A stretch of DNA of 64,000 nucleotides from Fidelibacterota bacterium (GTDB lineage Bacteria; Fidelibacterota; Marinisomatia; Marinisomatales; Marinisomataceae), in contig JAOIOW010000001.1 of NCBI GenBank assembly GCA_028140795.1, forward strand, positions 274,466 through 338,465. The letters run 5' to 3'. The position numbers were made by a program, and so were the translations under genes. Each line of letters begins with the position of its first letter. Positions within the stretch are counted from its first letter, which is position 1. The notes beneath the pieces are model-generated. The model was not told where the DNA came from. It worked only from the letters and a program-made list of their open reading frames with translations, and did not search any database. Positions 6,778-24,826 of the stretch are shown in pieces.

Positions 6778-8104
6778 ATGACTTATTAAATCTAAATCTA
6801 TTTATAATATAGTATACCAAATATATCGCTAGAAAAATTCTTCCCTGTGAAATTATAATTAACCAAAAATCACCAACTCTCACAAAATGAAAAAAAGTAA
6901 TTATAAAAAAAGGAAATATTGTTAGGAAGAATAGTTTTCTATTAATTCTTTCAAGAAGGTATTTAAAGATATATTTACAAAAAATACCAAAGAAAAACGA
7001 AAGAAATATTAAGGTAACAAATCCACCTTGCATATAAAAAAGTCCAAAAATTCCCATAGGTATTCCTGCAGAAAATATTGGAAAATATTTTGAAACTAAA
7101 GACTCTCCAATTGATGGAAATTCACTTAATCCTCCATCTAGACCCCAAAATAATAATAATTGTTTTGGTATAAAATCTAATCCAAATCTAAAACTTTCAT
7201 CATTACCATATGAATTAATTAATGTAATAACCATGTCCCAAACAAAAAATTCAGCAGTTTCTTCAACTATAGATTTACCTGCTTCTGCGGAGTTTGAAAT
7301 ACGAAAAGCAACAATGCTTGTTAGAAGCAACAACGCAAAAATATACATTATAAGCCCTGTAAATGCAGAAAATCTTTTTTTATAAAAATAATAGTAAACA
7401 GCAAACGGTACAAAAATACTTATAATTGCTAGTCTTCTACCAAAAATCAAACATAATAATATATTGAAAGCTGCAAGTAAAAATACTTTTAATTTTAAAC
7501 CATATCTTACCAACATAAGGGCAGGAGGTAGAAATGATAACAAAATAAAAATAAAAGCGAGCTTGATTATATATCCAGACTCAGGAATTGCTTTAACTAA
7601 TGCAGATTGAATTGAAATAATATTACTTATGCCACCAAAATTTATAATTAAAATCAAGCCACTAGTGATGATTGCTATTTCAACCATTATTGCAATAAGT
7701 ATTAAAAAACTTTCGGAGTATGATTCACCATTTAATTTTTTTTGATCTTTAAACCCGCTATAAACGGTGTATCCAAATACAAATGGTAAATATGCTAATG
7801 AGACAAATAAAAATGTCGATAAAATTGGGTCTATTTCGAATTGATATAGATTGAAGGTAAAAGGCTGAGCTTCATTCAATAAATAGAATCCAGGTCTGAT
7901 AAAAAAGTAGGTTATAAAGTAAAAAAATACAATCCATATTGGGCTAAGTACAATTTTTTCCACCTTAGAGGTTAAAAGAAAAAGCGAAATCCAAAAAAAA
8001 CACCATAATAAAATATTTAGATTTACTTCAGCAAAGTATAAACCTGAAGCAAACAAAAAAAATATAAATATCCCAAAGAATATTACTGAATTATTTTTTA
8101 GCAT
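6770..8104 (-). CDS. Wzy-like O-antigen/capsule repeat-unit polymerase
   Basis: 444 residues with about 11-12 hydrophobic segments. The only sizeable non-membrane loop lies in the C-terminal half (around WDMVITLINSYGNDES through GLDGGLSEFPSIGE), the layout expected of Wzy polymerases with a large periplasmic loop. Wzy proteins have little sequence conservation, so the call rests on topology and on lying between glycosyltransferase, flippase and Wza/Wzc genes. It would join lipid-linked repeat units in the periplasm. An O-antigen ligase is a less likely alternative. The 76 bp upstream are AT-rich with no recognised signal. Confidence 0.72.
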   Translation of the reverse strand: MLKNNSVIFFGIFIFFLFASGLYFAEVNLNILLWCFFWISLFLLTSKVEKIVLSPIWIVFFYFITYFFIRPGFYLLNEAQPFTFNLYQFEIDPILSTFLFVSLAYLPFVFGYTVYSGFKDQKKLNGESYSESFLILIAIMVEIAIITSGLILIINFGGISNIISIQSALVKAIPESGYIIKLAFIFILLSFLPPALMLVRYGLKLKVFLLAAFNILLCLIFGRRLAIISIFVPFAVYYYFYKKRFSAFTGLIMYIFALLLLTSIVAFRISNSAEAGKSIVEETAEFFVWDMVITLINSYGNDESFRFGLDFIPKQLLLFWGLDGGLSEFPSIGESLVSKYFPIFSAGIPMGIFGLFYMQGGFVTLIFLSFFFGIFCKYIFKYLLERINRKLFFLTIFPFFIITFFHFVRVGDFWLIIISQGRIFLAIYLVYYIINRFRFNKSYG

Positions 8105-12573: not shown

Positions 12574-12647
12574 GGGCCCATAGCTCAATTGGTTAGAGCA
12601 ACGGACTCATAATCCGCAGGTTCGGGGTTCAAGTCCCTGTGGGCCCA
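12574..12647 (+). tRNA. tRNA with CAU anticodon (Met elongator, or Ile2)
   Basis: A 74-nt cloverleaf: acceptor GGGCCCA/TGGGCCC, D arm GCTC/GAGC, anticodon loop CTCATAA (CAU at 34-36), T arm CGGGG/CCCTG with TTCAAGT loop, discriminator A. A perfect 1-72 pair excludes the initiator tRNA. CAU can be elongator Met or, if C34 is modified to lysidine, Ile for AUA codons; sequence alone does not decide. Position 27-43 is an A-C mismatch. The 3' CCA is not encoded (CTA follows), so it needs the CCA-adding enzyme found at 48291. The aminotransferase ATG begins only 3 nt after the tRNA. Confidence 0.95.
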
Positions 12648-12650
12648 CTA

Positions 12651-13559
12651 ATGAGTAGTCATTCGTATATATCAAATCCAAAAAATAAAGATATTTTTAT
12701 CAATATTAATGGGGAGCTCTTTCATAGAGATAATGCAAAAATTTCGGTTTTTGATAGTGGTTTTCTTCTTGGAGATGGAGTATGGGAGGGTATTAGGCTT
12801 CATAAGTCTAAACTTGTATTCATTTCTGAACATCTAGAAAGACTCTTTAATAGTGCTCGCGGAATTTCTCTTCAAATTCCTCTATCAAAGGAGGATATAA
12901 TATTTGAAATTGAAAAAGTACTATTAAAAAATAAAATGACTGACGATGTACACATTCGTTTAATAGTTTCTCGAGGAGATAAGATTACTCCATATCAAAA
13001 CCCTAATGCGAATATAGGACCTATAAATTTTGTAATTATTCCTGAATACAAAAAAACTGATCCAAAGATTTATAAAAATGGTATTACAATTGGAAGAGTC
13101 TCAACAATTAGGCCCTCAGAAAATATTTTAAGTACACATTATAATACTTTAAGTAAGCTAAATTGTATTCTCGCAAGCATTGAGGCTAATAAGTTAAATT
13201 ATGACGAGGGTATTATGAATGATCCTAACGGAAATATTAGCACTTGTAATTCCACAAATCTTTTTTTTATTAAAAATAATAGGGTATTGACATCAACGGG
13301 GAAATTTTGTCTTAATGGAATTACAAGAAGCAAAGCAATTGAAGTATGTAAAATAAATGAAATTCCTTGTAACGAAACAAACTTTACTTTTGAGGATATT
13401 AGAGATTGTGAAGAGGCTTTTGTTACAGGTACATTTGCAGGCATTATACCCGTATCAAAAATTGAAAATAATATGCTAAGTTCAACCAATACCAATTCTT
13501 TAGTCAATAAAATTAGAGCTTCATATAATCAATATATCAATCAAAGCATTGAATCCTAA
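12651..13559 (+). CDS. PLP-dependent class IV aminotransferase (D-amino-acid/branched-chain type)
   Basis: 302 residues from the ATG at 12651. An upstream in-frame start at 12639 lies inside the tRNA and is rejected. FDSGFLLGDGVWEGIRLH (35-52), NISTCNSTNLFFI (195-207) and GITRSKAIEVC are class IV signatures. The likely PLP lysine is K169 in TLSKLNCILA. The family includes branched-chain and D-amino-acid transaminases and aminodeoxychorismate lyase; substrate is not clear. It resembles a subgroup that sits next to a sulfotransferase-like P-loop protein, as here, where the stop and start codons overlap by one base. After tRNA processing the mRNA would have almost no 5' leader. Confidence 0.88.
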   Translation: MSSHSYISNPKNKDIFININGELFHRDNAKISVFDSGFLLGDGVWEGIRLHKSKLVFISEHLERLFNSARGISLQIPLSKEDIIFEIEKVLLKNKMTDDVHIRLIVSRGDKITPYQNPNANIGPINFVIIPEYKKTDPKIYKNGITIGRVSTIRPSENILSTHYNTLSKLNCILASIEANKLNYDEGIMNDPNGNISTCNSTNLFFIKNNRVLTSTGKFCLNGITRSKAIEVCKINEIPCNETNFTFEDIRDCEEAFVTGTFAGIIPVSKIENNMLSSTNTNSLVNKIRASYNQYINQSIES

Positions 13560-14269
13560 TGATAGTTGCTTGTTGGTCAGGTCCTAGAAATATTTCAACA
13601 GCACTCATGAGATCATGGTCTTCAAGAAAGGATACATTTGTCACAGATGAACCTTTTTATGCATATTACCTCAAAGAGACCAAGCTTAAACATCCTTTTT
13701 ACAAAGAAATAATTAATAAATATTCTTCAAATTATGATGAAATTGTTAAATATCTTATTAGTAGAACTCCGAAAAATAAAACAATTTGGTATCAAAAACA
13801 CATGGCTCACCACATTTTTGATTTTAATAACATTGAATGGGTGAATAATTGTGAAAATTGTATTTTATTAAGACATCCAAAAGAAGTAATTAGCTCTTAT
13901 TCCAAAAAGAATAAACTGGATTCAGTTGAAGAATTAGGTTATCCTCAACAGTATGAAATTATTAAGTATCTTAAAAAAATGAATAAATCTTATGTCATAA
14001 TTGATTCAAATGAACTTTTAAAAAACCCAGAAAAAGTATTATCGCAATGGTGTATGAAAATTAATATTAAATTTGATAAGTCAATGCTGAGATGGAAAGA
14101 AGGTAATCATGCCAGTGATGGTATTTGGTGGAAGAGTTGGTATGATAACGTAATAAAAACTACCAGATTTAAACAGTATGAAAAAAAAGATATTAACATT
14201 GAGAATAAATATGATTCTATTTATAATGAATCAATGAAATATTATACCTACCTAAAAGAAACTAAATAA
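13559..14269 (+). CDS. Sulfotransferase-like P-loop protein
   Basis: 236 residues. WSGPRNISTALMRSW (6-20) matches the 5'-phosphosulfate loop of PAPS-dependent sulfotransferases, and LLRHPKEVISSYSKKN provides the R-x-P-x(5)-S-type 3'-phosphate site. It is therefore expected to bind PAPS or a related nucleotide and transfer sulfate (or another group) to an unknown acceptor. The start overlaps the aminotransferase stop by one base (TAATG), indicating coupled translation. An APS-kinase-like gene two genes further on strengthens a sulfate-activation theme. No signal peptide, so cytoplasmic. Confidence 0.75.
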   Translation: MIVACWSGPRNISTALMRSWSSRKDTFVTDEPFYAYYLKETKLKHPFYKEIINKYSSNYDEIVKYLISRTPKNKTIWYQKHMAHHIFDFNNIEWVNNCENCILLRHPKEVISSYSKKNKLDSVEELGYPQQYEIIKYLKKMNKSYVIIDSNELLKNPEKVLSQWCMKINIKFDKSMLRWKEGNHASDGIWWKSWYDNVIKTTRFKQYEKKDINIENKYDSIYNESMKYYTYLKETK

Positions 14270-14469
14270 TGAATTCTTTATTAAAATTATGGTCCCAACC
14301 TCAATGGATAAAATGGATTATTTACTTAGCAATCGTATATATTTTATTTTTGATAAAAGAAGCATTCGCTATTGTTTTATGGTTTCTGTTTTGTATAATT
14401 CTGTATTATATCATCTTCGCAAATAATGTATTTAAAACAAGGACATATTATGAAAAAAATAATTTTTAG
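14269..14469 (+). CDS. Small membrane protein of unknown function
   Basis: 66 residues with two likely membrane helices (about residues 16-31 and 33-52) separated by very little loop, and a basic C-terminus. Its ATG overlaps the TAA of the sulfotransferase gene (TAATG) and its end overlaps the peptidase start by 20 bp, so position in a tightly packed operon is the main support. I do not recognise a family. It could be a membrane anchor for neighbouring proteins or a spurious reading frame, but translational coupling makes it more likely real. Confidence 0.5.
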   Translation: MNSLLKLWSQPQWIKWIIYLAIVYILFLIKEAFAIVLWFLFCIILYYIIFANNVFKTRTYYEKNNF

Positions 14470-16111
14470 TTTTTTGTTATGCGCGTTGCTGTCTTGTCAG
14501 GAGAATAGGCCTCATGGTAATCAGTATAATTTGCCAGAACTAACTCCAAACAACCTCTTGATGGGCAGTTTAAATGAAAATCGTTCATCATATCGAGTAT
14601 CATATTATGATATCAATATTGATTTTAATATTGATAAAAAATCATTAAATGGTTTTGTTACAATTAAGGCCGAAAGCATGAGGGATCTAAATATACTACA
14701 AATTGATTTAGCCGAAAATTTAGATATCAAAAAAATAATGCATAAAAAAGAAGAATTAAATTTCTCAAGAGAACTTGATGCTGTTTTAGTTAATTTTCCA
14801 TCAACTATAAAAAAAGGTAATTTTTTTGAATTTTCAGTTTTTTACGAAGGTATTCCTCAAAGTGCAGATAATCCACCTTGGGCAGGAGGTTTTACTTGGT
14901 CCAAAGATAAAGATGGACGTGATTGGATTGCTGTATCTTGTGAAGGAGAAGGTGCAAGAATTTGGTGGCCAAATAAGGATCATATTACTGCGGAGGGAGA
15001 TAGTGTGAGAATGGCTTATACAGTTCCGTCAGATTTAGTAGCAGTTGGAAATGGACAATTAAGAAGTGTCAAAGAATTTGATGATAAAACCACATATGAA
15101 TGGTTTGTTCAAAACCCAATTAATAATTATAACATATCTGTACAAATTGGAAACTATGTTTCTGTTCAAGATACGTTAATAAAAAATGATACAACCCATC
15201 TTATGAATCATTATGTTTTAGATTATAATAAGGAATTAGCTTCAAATTATTTTCTTCAGTCAAAAGAAATAATTCGTTTTTATGAAAAATACTTTGGCGA
15301 CTATCAATGGTACAAAGATGGCTATAAACTAGTTGAAGTTCCTTATCTTGGAATGGAACATCAATCAGCAGTAACATATGGAAATGGATTTAGTATTTAT
15401 AATGGAGTAAGAAGCAAAAGTTGGCCAATGTATGGAGTCATAGACCCCTTAATTATTCACGAAACAGGGCATGAGTGGTTTGGTAATAGTGTAACCGCAT
15501 CAGATCCAACTCATATTTGGATCCACGAAGGGTTGCAAGTTTATTCAGAAGCTATATATTTTGAAGATAAATTTAACAGTTATGAAGTTGGTGTTCATTA
15601 TTTAAATAGCATTAAAAATAGAATTATAAATGAAATACCGATTGTTGGAAACGAAAATGAAAATCACTGGGCACTTCATGGCGATACATATATGAAAGGT
15701 GCATGGGTAATGCACACCTTAAGGAGTGTAATTAATAATGATAAAATATGGTTTGAAATTTTGAAAGAATTTATGGTTGAAAATGCAAAAGGCTTTGTAG
15801 ATACAAGGGACTTTTTTAATAAAGTTAATGAAAAAACTGGGCAAGACTATTGGTATTTTGCTGAACAATATTTTTATAGTCCAAATCAACCAAAATTAGA
15901 TTACTACCAAACTGACCAAACATTTCATTTCAGATGGAGAAACGTTAATGATAATTTTATTATGCCAATTGAATTATTAGTTAATGGTTCAATAAAAAGG
16001 GTTCTGCCTTCAAAAGACTTTCAATCATTTAATATAACTAAACATTCTCAAATAGAAGTTATGGACTGGAAGTTTTACATTCTACCTAATGAGGTCAATT
16101 TAAATGAATAA
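14450..16111 (+). CDS. M1-family zinc metallopeptidase, lipoprotein
   Basis: 553 residues from the ATG at 14450, which gives a lipoprotein signal MKKIIFSFLLCALLSCQ; the 8-codon upstream extension is rejected. The zinc site is HETGH followed 18 residues later by the Glu of HEGLQVYSE, the gluzincin layout. The substrate-binding motif reads YLGMEHQSAV in place of the GAMEN motif, a variant known in M1 peptidases of Bacteroidetes-like bacteria. It would cleave N-terminal residues from peptides at the cell surface or periplasm. Its place within an aminotransferase-sulfotransferase operon is unexplained. The next gene overlaps by 8 bp. Confidence 0.9.
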   Translation: MKKIIFSFLLCALLSCQENRPHGNQYNLPELTPNNLLMGSLNENRSSYRVSYYDINIDFNIDKKSLNGFVTIKAESMRDLNILQIDLAENLDIKKIMHKKEELNFSRELDAVLVNFPSTIKKGNFFEFSVFYEGIPQSADNPPWAGGFTWSKDKDGRDWIAVSCEGEGARIWWPNKDHITAEGDSVRMAYTVPSDLVAVGNGQLRSVKEFDDKTTYEWFVQNPINNYNISVQIGNYVSVQDTLIKNDTTHLMNHYVLDYNKELASNYFLQSKEIIRFYEKYFGDYQWYKDGYKLVEVPYLGMEHQSAVTYGNGFSIYNGVRSKSWPMYGVIDPLIIHETGHEWFGNSVTASDPTHIWIHEGLQVYSEAIYFEDKFNSYEVGVHYLNSIKNRIINEIPIVGNENENHWALHGDTYMKGAWVMHTLRSVINNDKIWFEILKEFMVENAKGFVDTRDFFNKVNEKTGQDYWYFAEQYFYSPNQPKLDYYQTDQTFHFRWRNVNDNFIMPIELLVNGSIKRVLPSKDFQSFNITKHSQIEVMDWKFYILPNEVNLNE

Positions 16112-16559
16112 ATATCAAGCTATATGGCTTACTGGTCAGCCTGCTAGTGGTAAAACAACATTAGCAAATATGCTAATTGATCATTTTAATAAAAATGGCC
16201 ATGAAAAAGATTTTTACAATATAGATGGTGATGACTTACGCGATTTATTTCAAAATAAAGACTATTCTAGAAAAGGAAGATTTGCAAATATTAGATTGGG
16301 TATGAGCATTGCAGCATATTTAATTAATAAAAATAAAACTCCAATTATCTCTTTAGTTTCTCCCTATAGAGAATTGAGAGAAGAGTTCAAGAGCAAATAC
16401 GAGGTCTTAGAAGTGTACCTATTTACAACAGAAATAAGGGGAAGAGAAAATTTTTTTGTTAAAGACTATGAAAAACCATTAAAAAATTTTATTGAGATAG
16501 ATACAACACATCAAACAGAACAGGAAAGTTTAAATGAAATACTCAATGTTTATAGGTAG
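16104..16559 (+). CDS. APS-kinase-like protein (CysC family), shortened
   Basis: 151 residues versus about 200 for adenylylsulfate kinase. Walker A GQPASGKT (11-18), DGDDLRDLF (41-49), NIRLGMSIAAYL, SPYRELREEF and the YEKP...IEIDTT segment (122-134) follow CysC order. The region that in CysC reads RDxKGLYKKAR...FTGID is reduced to a few residues, so part of the APS-binding lid is missing. It may still make PAPS from APS for the sulfotransferase upstream, or phosphorylate another nucleotide: the CysC-like Cj1415 of Campylobacter acts on cytidine diphosphoramidate. It overlaps the peptidase by 8 bp and the next gene by 26 bp. Confidence 0.72.
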   Translation: MNKYQAIWLTGQPASGKTTLANMLIDHFNKNGHEKDFYNIDGDDLRDLFQNKDYSRKGRFANIRLGMSIAAYLINKNKTPIISLVSPYRELREEFKSKYEVLEVYLFTTEIRGRENFFVKDYEKPLKNFIEIDTTHQTEQESLNEILNVYR

Positions 16560-16875
16560 ATGGCAACCATGGCATGATGGTCATCGCTGGTTAATTGATC
16601 AAAGACTAAATGAAGGAAAAAATGTTTTAATTTGTGTACGAGAGGTTAGCAAAGATGATAAAAACCCTTATAACCCTAAAGATGTAAAAGAAAACGTGGA
16701 AAAAAAATTAAAAGATTTAATTGATTTAAAAAAAGTTAAAGTAATCATTATTCCAGATATTGAATCAGTGAATTATGGTCGTGGGGTAGGGTATGAAATT
16801 ATTGAACATATTCCTCCATCAGATATTAGTAAGATTTCTGCAACTAAAATAAGGAAAGAATTATTTAACAAGTAA
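16534..16875 (+). CDS. Minimal HxGH nucleotidyltransferase (cytidylyl/adenylyltransferase-like)
   Basis: 113 residues. FIGRWQPWHDGHRWLI (6-21) contains the HxGH motif and ISATKIRKEL (101-110) the ISxTxxR motif, both of the nucleotidyltransferase superfamily that includes NMN, phosphopantetheine and glycerol-phosphate nucleotidyltransferases and ATP sulfurylase. The fold is close to minimal size. Start and previous stop overlap by 26 bp, implying the two proteins work together, for instance kinase then nucleotidyl transfer on one metabolite. The substrate is unknown. The 3' end overlaps the convergent hldA-like gene by 15 bp. Confidence 0.72.
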   Translation: MKYSMFIGRWQPWHDGHRWLIDQRLNEGKNVLICVREVSKDDKNPYNPKDVKENVEKKLKDLIDLKKVKVIIIPDIESVNYGRGVGYEIIEHIPPSDISKISATKIRKELFNK

Positions 16876-20677: not shown

Positions 20678-22168
20678 TTAGTATCTATATTCATCTTTTT
20701 TATAAGGACCATTAACATTAACTCCAATATACTCTGCCTGAGATTTAGATAATTTAGTTAAATCTGCATCTAAATGTTTCAAATGAATTCTTGCAACTTC
20801 TTCATCTAATTTTCTCGGTAAGTCATAAATGCCTGGTGCAGGTTTATTTTTAGCAAGAAATAATTGTGCCAACACTTGATTTGAAAATGATGTAGACATT
20901 ACAAAGCTAGCATGTCCTGTTGCGCAACCAAGATTAACTAATCTTCCTTCTGCTAATAAAAATATTTGTTTGCCATTTTTGAAAGTATATCTATCAAGCT
21001 GAGGTTTTATTTGATCTCTTTTTGCATCTGATTTATTTAAAGCATCAACTTGAATTTCATTATCAAAATGTCCAATATTACAAACAATGGCTTGATCTTT
21101 CATTTTTTTCATATGTTTTAATGTAATAATATCTTTATTGCCAGTTGTTGTTACAAAAATATTTCCCCTCTTTAAAACATCTTCTAATCTTCTGACTTCG
21201 AATCCTTCCATTGCTGCTTGAAGAGCGCATATTGGATCAATCTCAGTTACAATAACTTTACAACCATATGATTTCATAGATTGTGCCGAGCCTTTACCTA
21301 CGTCACCGTATCCACAAACAACAACAGTTTTCCCTGCCAACATTATTTCAGTTGATCTTTTAATTCCATCAGCTAATGATTCTCTACAACCGTAAAGATT
21401 ATCAAATTTAGATTTGGTCGCTGCATCATTTACATTAAATGCTGGGAACAGTAAAGTAGCATCTTCTACCATTTGCTGTAATCTTGCCACACCTGTTGTC
21501 GTTTCTTCTGAAACACCTATAATTTCAGGAACAATATTATGCCAATGATTTGGATTAAGTTTATGAACTTTCCTTAAAAGTTTTTCAATTACAATTTCCT
21601 CTTCAATATTTGAAGTAATTTTTGGTAGTTTTTTATGTTCATTAAAATAGTTTTCTAATTCGAATCCCTTGTGAATTAATAAGGTTGCATCGCCACCATC
21701 ATCAACAATAAGATTTGGTCCTAAGTTATTTTTAAAGGTTAAAGCTTGTAAAGTACAATCCCAATATTCTTCAAGCGTTTCACCTTTCCACGCAAATACT
21801 GGAGTCTTAGTCTTAGCAATTGCAGCGGCAGCTTCATCTTGCGTAGAGAAAATATTACAACTTGCCCAACGCACATCAGCACCAAGATCTTTTAATGTCT
21901 CTATAAGAATTGCTGTTTCGATTGTCATATGCAATGAACCAGTAAGTCTAAAGCCTTTCAAGGGTTTTGATCTTGAATATTTCTTTCTTAATTCCATTAA
22001 GCCTGGCATTTCCTTTTCAGAAATATCAATCTTATCTCTACCTAATTTTGCTAATGCAATATCTTTAATTTTGTATGGTAGAGATTCAACAATCTTTTTG
22101 GATTGATCCTGTATTTTACTTTTTTGTGTTTTCATTGATTTGTTTGATTCATTTAATTGTACTCTCAT
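20678..22168 (-). CDS. ahcY: Adenosylhomocysteinase
   Basis: 496 residues; hydrolyses S-adenosylhomocysteine to adenosine and homocysteine. [49 protein letters not shown] (NAD-binding) and the C-terminal [10 protein letters not shown] with final DEYRY are all present. It belongs to the longer bacterial form with an insertion of about 40 residues after the DDGGD motif. An ATG at 22135 (MKTQKSK) is an alternative start; the extra 11 residues are not conserved in the family as I know it. It follows metK by 8 bp, so SAM synthesis and SAH removal are co-expressed. Confidence 0.97.
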
Positions 22169-22176
22169 TTTCCCTC

Positions 22177-23295
22177 TTAAAAGTTTAATTGATTTGCTAT
22201 ATCAGTTTTTTCCCAAGCAAGATCGTTTTTCCCAAAATGACCATAGTTTGTGGTTTTAGTTAGATCTAATTTAAATAGATTAAATTTCTTAATGATTCCT
22301 AAAGGTGTCAAATCAACATTTTGATAAATCCACTCTGATATGTCATTTCTAACTATACCATCACAATAGACATAAAGCGATACAGGTTCTTTAACACCTA
22401 TGGCATAACTAAGTTGAATAGTAGCATTTTGCGAAACTCCTGATGCCACAATATTTTTAGCTAAATATCTTGCCATGTATGCGCCACTTCTATCTACTTT
22501 TGTGCAGTCTTTTCCGCTAAATGCTCCTCCACCATGAGGTGCATAGCCACCATACGTATCAACAATGATTTTTCGTCCAGTGACTCCCGTATCGCCATCT
22601 GGTCCACCTGTTACAAAATTACCAGTTGGGTTCACTTGAAAGATAGTATGATCATCGAACATATCATTTAATTCTGGCTTGATAATTTCTTCTACTCTTT
22701 TTTGTACTTCTGCAGGATTACCTTTTAAATCTTTGCTATGTTGGGTACTGCAAATAACGTTTGATATTCTTACAGGTTTATTCACATTACTGTATTCGAC
22801 TGTTACTTGCGCTTTTCCGTCTGGACCCATCCAGTCTTGCCCATTATGTCTTGCAGTAGAAAGTGCTTTAGTAATTTTGTGGCTGTAATAGATTGCGCTT
22901 GGCATTAAAGAATCATTTTCACTGCATGCATAACCAAACATCATTCCTTGATCTCCTGCACCAAAGTCATCTGTTCCTCTTGCTATGTCGACACTTTGAT
23001 TATGAATTAAATTTTTAAAAGATAATGTATTCCAATGAAAGTTTTCTTGTTCATAGCCAATGTCTTTAACGGTATGCCTGACAAGTGCTTCTATAGAATC
23101 AGTATTGTTCATTAAGTCCGTTTTAACTTCTCCAGCAATAGTAACCATATTTGATGAAACCATTGTTTCAATAGCTGCTCTATGACTCTCATTTTGATTT
23201 ATTAAATAATTTGCTACATTATCTGAGATTAGGTCAGCAACTTTATCTGGATGGCCTTCTGTGACTGATTCAGATGTAAAAAAATAGTTTTTCAT
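22177..23295 (-). CDS. metK: S-adenosylmethionine synthetase
   Basis: 372 residues; makes SAM from methionine and [23 protein letters not shown] (6-25) holds the ATP-binding His, [12 protein letters not shown] and [19 protein letters not shown] are the hallmark loops. Slightly shorter than the usual 380-400 residues but with all motifs. It overlaps the upstream SET-domain gene by 4 bp. I looked for a SAM riboswitch in the 103-bp leader of the operon and saw none. Confidence 0.97.
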
Positions 23296-24469: not shown

Positions 24470-24477
24470 ATCCACAA

Positions 24478-24815
24478 GAGCTGATTGGATGATTACTCGA
24501 TTTTTCGAGAGGAAAGTCCGGGCACCGAAGAGCATAGTGCCACCTAACAGGTGGGATTCGTGAGAATATGGACAGTGCAGCAGAAAGTAAACCGCCAGTA
24601 AATGGTAAGGGTGAAACGGTGGTGTAAGAGACCACCAGTAATAATGGTAACATTATTAGCTGGTAAACCCCACTAGGTGCAAGATCACGTAGACCCGAGA
24701 TACTGCTCGTATCATTTGAGGGAAGGGTAGATTGCTAGAGTTTTATAGAAATATAAGATAGAGAGGAATGATCATCGCATCACAGATGTACAGAACCCGG
24801 CTTATAAATCAGCTC
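24478..24815 (+). ncRNA. rnpB: RNase P RNA (bacterial class A)
   Basis: 338 nt. The closing helix P1 is formed by GAGCTGATT (24478-24486) and AATCAGCTC (24807-24815). The universally conserved segments are present in order: AGAGGAAAGTCCGGGC near the 5' end, CAGAAAGTAAACCGCC, GGGTGAAACGGTGG, GTAAGAGACCACCAG, a GCAAGATC segment, and ACAGAACCCGGCTTAT near the 3' end. It is the catalytic RNA that matures tRNA 5' ends. Only 11 nt separate its 3' end from the fabH start, so the two are probably co-transcribed. Short reading frames across this region are artefacts. Confidence 0.97.
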
Positions 24816-24826
24816 AAAAAATTATT

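Follow-up and report, generated by a model that had tools for sequence, protein, structure and literature searches.

A short kinase and a 113-residue nucleotidyltransferase as a predicted sulfate-activating pair in Marinimicrobia and phages

Sat and CysDN, the two ATP sulfurylases known to activate sulfate, are unrelated to each other. A block of six genes from a Fidelibacterota bacterium (contig JAOIOW010000001.1, positions 274,466 to 338,465; this whole stretch of 64,000 nucleotides is referred to as the window) ends with two genes that may represent another solution. These encode KIN, a short P-loop kinase resembling the kinases of adenosine 5'-phosphosulfate (APS), and NT, a small HxGH nucleotidyltransferase. 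KIN and NT are likely to form a minimal two-polypeptide synthase of 3'-phosphoadenosine 5'-phosphosulfate (PAPS), with an ATP sulfurylase of neither the Sat nor the CysDN type, which would feed the sulfotransferase ST of the same block.

The bifunctional PAPS synthases, including animal PAPSS and bacterial Sat-APS kinase, likewise have an APS kinase and an HxGH-fold adenylyltransferase in one unit, and the kinase is N-terminal both in animal PAPSS and in fused forms of KIN-NT. In contrast to these enzymes, NT has just 113 amino acids (aa) and lacks the PF01747 and PUA_2 domains. The CysD-CysN(-CysC) system gives the same product as that predicted for NT and holds the same slot after AT-ST, the first two genes of the block, in the genome G167, but its proteins are unrelated to NT and are missing throughout the genus (24 genomes). 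Archaeal NadM and its relatives are the nearest curated models and have the segments GRxQPxHxGH, PDI, and ISxTxIR in common with NT. However, NT falls far under their cut-off, is about one-third shorter, has an APS kinase as partner, and carries its own segment GRx[VI]GY. A literature search found no description of an ATP sulfurylase resembling nicotinamide mononucleotide (NMN) adenylyltransferase (NMNAT) or of a PF19798-aminotransferase pair, and such an absence is no proof.

In the proposed mechanism, NT would convert ATP and sulfate to APS and pyrophosphate, KIN would phosphorylate the 3'-OH of APS to yield PAPS, and ST would use PAPS to sulfonate a small acceptor. AT would either make this acceptor or convert it afterwards, and TM together with the M1 lipoprotein probably handles the product or a precursor at the envelope. 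The features of the locus are as follows:

12651..13559, plus strand: AT, class IV pyridoxal 5'-phosphate (PLP) enzyme, 302 aa (PF01063, 7e-41)
13559..14269, plus strand: ST, Sulfotransfer_5, 236 aa, predicted PAPS-dependent sulfotransferase (PF19798, 1e-47)
14269..14469, plus strand: TM, hydrophobic, 66 aa (open reading frame; position kept between ST and M1 within the genus)
14450..16111, plus strand: M1, M1-family metallopeptidase lipoprotein (PF01433, 1e-17; PF17900; reading frame open from 14426)
16104..16559, plus strand: KIN, 151-aa P-loop kinase, short and APS-kinase-like, predicted APS kinase (PF01583, 5e-17)
16534..16875, plus strand: NT, HxGH nucleotidyltransferase, 113 aa, predicted minimal ATP sulfurylase (PF01467, 4e-6)
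12574..12648, plus strand: tRNA-Met (CAT), 5' of the gene block and outside the proposed mechanism (ARAGORN, Rfam RF00005)

Sequence and fold of NT and KIN

NT belongs to the HxGH nucleotidyltransferase superfamily. PF01467 is its sole Pfam match, and it carries GRWQPWHDGH and GRGVGY; in the family alignment, HxGH and ISxTxxR are conserved. The structure model of NT, for which phage and plasmid rows were excluded from the input, has the HxGH nucleotidyltransferase fold with a predicted local distance difference test (pLDDT) value of 85.6, the last third being less certain. The human ATP sulfurylase domain likewise carries an HxGH motif (work cited in PMC3779200), and the histidines of this motif are required (PMC11697783). 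NT stands outside the Sat and CysDN families because it fails the defining features of both. PF01747 is absent from NT and has no match anywhere in the source genome, which is 0.92 Mb, incomplete, and in 12 contigs. NT as a degenerate Sat was rejected as the profile comparison with Sat failed, and phmmer matches of NT to agglutinins (lectins) were dismissed as the result of short repeated motifs. The original prediction held that no ATP sulfurylase is present, which is not borne out, NT being the best candidate. A role of NT in joining a nucleotide to an amino compound found no support; the sulfate-activation theme of the same prediction did.

KIN is predicted from its sequence to be an APS kinase. 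It matches PF01583 with 62.8 bits against a gathering cut-off of 21.1, and keeps the P-loop, DGDxxR, (F/Y)S..R..N, and PYR in the alignment.

Distribution, fusions and positional replacement

The genus set comprises 24 genomes, and the comparison covers the other genomes of the phylum and 44 NT genomes of other lineages. NT is present in 13 of the 24 genus genomes, which are exactly the 13 with ST, and in 0 of the remaining 11 (Fisher p = 4e-7, relatedness ignored). NT and ST lie on one contig, 1 to 9 kb apart, in all 13. Neither Sat nor CysD (TIGR02039) was found in any of the 24 genomes. Outside the genus, Sat or CysD is present in 110 of the 117 phylum genomes that lack NT but have a strong APS kinase. 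Among the 44 NT genomes of other lineages, four have Sat, two others have CysD, and 38 have neither; PF13469 sulfotransferases occur in 32 of the 44, with up to 12 matches each, and several Flavobacteriales genomes of only 1.4-2.0 Mb have at least nine. It is unlikely that incompleteness fully explains the lack of Sat and CysD. ST genomes outside the genus show a weak enrichment of Sat or CysD (38/61 versus 75/160, p = 0.05). CysQ/PAP phosphatase was not found above its family cut-off, and sub-threshold relatives occur alike with or without NT.

Among 84,980 species genomes scanned, 431 relatives of NT turned up, and the 80 best belong to Marinimicrobia, Bacteroidota, Nitrospirota, Acidobacteriota, Marine Group III archaea, SAR11, and others. 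In four lineages, NT is directly 3' of, or fused behind, an APS kinase that exceeds the TIGR00455 cut-off of 138.7 bits, namely in Flavobacteriales (L160, 249 bits), Chitinophagaceae (L180, 188), Acidobacteria (L141, 172), and haloarchaea (L201, 156). The order of APS kinase followed by adenylyltransferase is the domain order of animal PAPS synthases (PMC3734648). Within one or two genes of the pair, sulfotransferase genes are located in haloarchaea (by Pfam match), an Acidobacteria metagenome-assembled genome (MAG), and a Bacteroidia MAG, and one further sulfotransferase gene is near the pair at L153. The haloarchaeal kinase-NT fusion is found on plasmids and annotated as cysC. In the Acidobacteria MAG, the sulfotransferase domain is part of an 845-aa TPR protein two genes 5' of the fusion, and in the Bacteroidia MAG the sulfotransferase, APS kinase, and NT genes overlap.

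Moreover, the components are replaced in position by known PAPS-making enzymes. The genomes G047 and G136 (L206, L207) have a full-length APS kinase in the slot of KIN between M1 and NT, and KIN is thus exchangeable. Three Marinimicrobia outside the genus have canonical enzymes instead: in G024 and G168, a canonical Sat-APS kinase fusion directly follows and overlaps ST, and in G167 CysD and then CysN/C directly follow AT-ST. Therefore, the slot beside AT-ST is held by three PAPS-making solutions, of which KIN-NT would be the third.

Viruses carry the pair as well. The viral sample consists of 80 IMG/VR contigs (L036-L115) recovered via NT, and KIN is present in 78 of them, usually just 5' of NT, either overlapping it or adjacent. 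Phages of Stenotrophomonas, Xanthomonas, and Clavibacter have a KIN-NT fusion. The fusion of the Stenotrophomonas and Xanthomonas phages is of the same family as PHROG 10255, which is annotated as a kinase alone with no function proposed. Viral cysC genes are described, in part of one report, as auxiliary metabolic genes for sulfate assimilation that are phylogenetically separate from cellular CysC; their products are short and 27-47% like database CysC, and the paired NT does not figure in that part of the account (PMC9529941). KIN is very probably of the same type as this viral cysC, whose meaning the companion NT would change.

In the NT tree, the copy of the window clusters with other Marinimicrobia copies (support 100/98), and the surrounding part of the tree, for the most part weakly supported, mixes copies from viruses, archaea, and bacteria. 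KIN-NT is a mobile module. With moderate confidence, NT may be regarded as a third non-orthologous and very small family of ATP sulfurylases that, together with an APS kinase, makes a portable PAPS synthase in SAR11, Marinimicrobia, Flavobacteria, haloarchaea, and very many phages. On this reading, viral cysC would be one half of a complete sulfate-activation module. If true, an enzyme of 113 residues would close a gap in SAR11 and in the many sea bacteria whose genomes encode sulfotransferases and APS kinase without any known ATP sulfurylase. The widely reported viral cysC genes, so far read as lone assimilation genes, would then belong to complete modules for making PAPS, and a very small enzyme would be on offer for PAPS supply.

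Several side observations concern the surroundings of the pair. Environmental phages very commonly carry KIN-NT, whose neighbours there include genes of DNA metabolism such as a clamp loader, ThyX, and a DNA methylase. On haloarchaeal plasmids (L200-L202), the fusion is flanked by a 407-aa sulfotransferase and a protein of the YqcI/YcgG family, and the three genes make a compact cassette. Genes for S-adenosylmethionine (SAM) synthetase and S-adenosylhomocysteine (SAH) hydrolase follow NT in a group of Bacteroidota (eight loci beside CysC/KIN-NT) and precede KIN-NT in two Marine Group III archaea, which links the pair further to sulfur metabolism. Six Bacteroidota loci have a second nucleotidyltransferase of 132 aa (PF01467, rfaE/TagD-like) between APS kinase and NT.

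Contrary evidence and alternative explanations

A number of results weigh against the proposed PAPS synthase. NT is nearest in sequence to NMN adenylyltransferases, with archaeal NMNAT as the best curated models. Its structure model matches phosphopantetheine adenylyltransferase (PPAT), NMNAT, and ATP sulfurylase about equally (template modelling scores of 0.56 and 0.55 for the ATP sulfurylases 8a8g and 1v47); because of this, the fold is compatible with an ATP sulfurylase but is no proof of one. Profile comparison of NT with Sat showed nothing beyond the superfamily (probability 15%), and NT lacks the motifs QxRNPxHxxH and GRDHAG, which the Sats of the phylum have. KIN reaches 65.3 bits with TIGR00455, which is below the equivalog cut-off of 138.7, and has RGREnFFVxDYExP in place of the APS lid LYKKARxGEIKxFTG, which is present in its counterparts in G047 and G136. 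The genomes are MAGs or single cells and often incomplete. Outside the genus, 23 of 61 ST genomes have neither Sat nor CysD, and only one of these 23 (G101) has NT. ST may therefore not always require locally made PAPS. In addition, many SAR11 loci have NT with no recognisable KIN adjoining it. No sulfotransferase was found near the viral pairs with five queries, and for this reason viral PAPS may serve host enzymes or something else. The neighbourhood of NT in SAR11 is fixed, consisting of a TenA/haem-oxygenase-like protein and a transporter of the major facilitator superfamily, and 17 such loci have no recognisable KIN beside NT.

The likeliest alternative, which is nonetheless improbable, is that the substrate of NT is another oxyanion or acid, activated as a conjugate of adenosine or cytidine monophosphate, and that the kinase phosphorylates the 3'-OH of this conjugate, so that glycans or DNA would receive an activated group of an unusual kind. 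The model for this is the Campylobacter phosphoramidate (MeOPN) pathway, whose set of enzymes comprises a glutamine kinase, a CTP-dependent transferase, a hydrolase, and a CysC-like kinase. The missing APS lid of KIN, the divergence of viral and SAR11 kinases, the position of the window block among polysaccharide genes, and the DNA-metabolism genes near the phage pairs are in line with such a role. Nevertheless, bona fide APS kinases occupy the place of KIN, canonical PAPS genes substitute for the pair beside AT-ST, and sulfotransferases adjoin it.

Alternatively, a sulfotransferase block may have landed by chance beside a mobile kinase-nucleotidyltransferase pair to which it has no functional link. 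The pair occurs alone in viruses and is often on the opposite strand or several kb off the block, as chance would allow. This explanation is quite improbable in view of the perfect co-occurrence within the genus (13/13 and 0/11) on the same contig at 1 to 9 kb, and of the way in which Sat and CysD take over the position beside AT-ST elsewhere. A NadR-like module for NAD salvage, composed of an NMN-type adenylyltransferase and a riboside-type kinase, was rejected as very improbable even though archaeal NMNAT models are the best curated matches of NT and its first-domain motif GRxQPxHxGH is NMNAT-like, since NT scores 32.9 bits (about 33) with TIGR01527 and fails its cut-off of 181, NadD (TIGR00482 above cut-off) is present in 19 of 24 genus genomes irrespective of NT, the partner of NT is an unmistakable APS kinase in several lineages, and NT co-occurs with sulfotransferases.

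Companion genes and layout of the block

ST is a predicted PAPS-dependent sulfotransferase. Its AlphaFold2 model has a pLDDT of 93.7, and the best Foldseek matches are PAPS sulfotransferases, many of them bound to 3'-phosphoadenosine 5'-phosphate (PAP). The alignment has two invariant segments, WSGPR..ST and R-x-P-x-x-V-x-x-S, which presumably resemble the 5'- and 3'-phosphate loops of PAPS sulfotransferases. The best matches in both structure and sequence are the CurM and olefin-synthase sulfotransferases (4gbm, 4gox). These are domains of polyketide synthases, whereas ST stands alone as a protein and has a PLP enzyme as its partner.

AT contains a PF01063 domain (141 bits), and its probable catalytic lysine, K169, and the segment around it are kept in the alignment. 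In class IV enzymes, the signature Glu contacts N1 of PLP. Thr replaces this Glu in 13 of 13 rows of the AT family, and Glu is present in the paralogue L002. Naming AT a transaminase is therefore unsafe, and from the alignment the family appears to be an unusual group of PLP enzymes. In an improbable extension of this reading, much less likely than the rest, AT may not transaminate but use as leaving group a sulfate ester that ST produces. In G057, AT is split into fragments, which reflects a decaying copy or an assembly error. The 66-aa TM has no Pfam family above its cut-off. M1 has a lipoprotein-type signal, LLSC, and an HETGH...E motif; ATG 14450 is a more likely start than 14426.

Rather than a single fixed unit, the six genes make up modules that are distributed separately: AT and ST form one module, and KIN and NT form another. 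A search with PF19798, the ST family, gave 74 matching genomes among 245 of the phylum, and 30 Marinimicrobia loci were inspected for neighbours. AT is directly 5' of ST in all 30, and the partnership of AT and ST suggested by the original prediction is thus real. The same prediction named plant BCAT-like proteins, in which a class IV aminotransferase would be fused to a comparable P-loop domain. The block AT-ST-TM-M1 is intact in 11 related loci of the genus type. On the other hand, five loci (L124, L125, L129, L130, and L133) have KIN-NT on the opposite strand, whereas it lies upstream of the block in L123 and L168 and apart from it in others. The window order recurs at L136/L206 and L138/L207. 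The single operon predicted earlier was accordingly retained for AT-ST-TM-M1 only, and a fixed six-gene operon was rejected. The genes do occur together in related genomes, and the model of ST resembles PAP-bound sulfotransferases, both of which agree with that prediction. L130 and L133, with Marinimicrobia-like AT-ST-TM-M1 and KIN-NT, come from MAGs labelled Flavobacteriales and Gammaproteobacteria, pointing to mis-binning or transfer. Broken genes at L123/L208 and on contig C5 of G050 (6999-7338) are decaying copies or assembly errors; in G050 it is NT that is interrupted by stops.

In the window, the six predicted genes are real and overlap by 1, 1, ~20, 8, and 26 bp, all on the plus strand. 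The reading frames are not chance, since homologues of every one of the proteins occur in related genomes. The left end of the block, earlier placed at 12574, is no coding start but the first base of tRNA-Met. AT starts at ATG 12651, as the alternative GTG 12639 falls within the tRNA. No RNA structure was found at the KIN-NT junction, and a promoter scan gave sites no more numerous than in shuffled sequence. Polysaccharide genes on the minus strand lie to the left of the block, and genes of a PfkB-family kinase, a histidine-phosphatase family protein, and an epimerase lie convergently to the right. SAM synthetase and SAH hydrolase are also encoded in the window at 20678-23295 on the minus strand, 4 kb from NT, and a bacterial class A RNase P RNA is located at 24477-24820.

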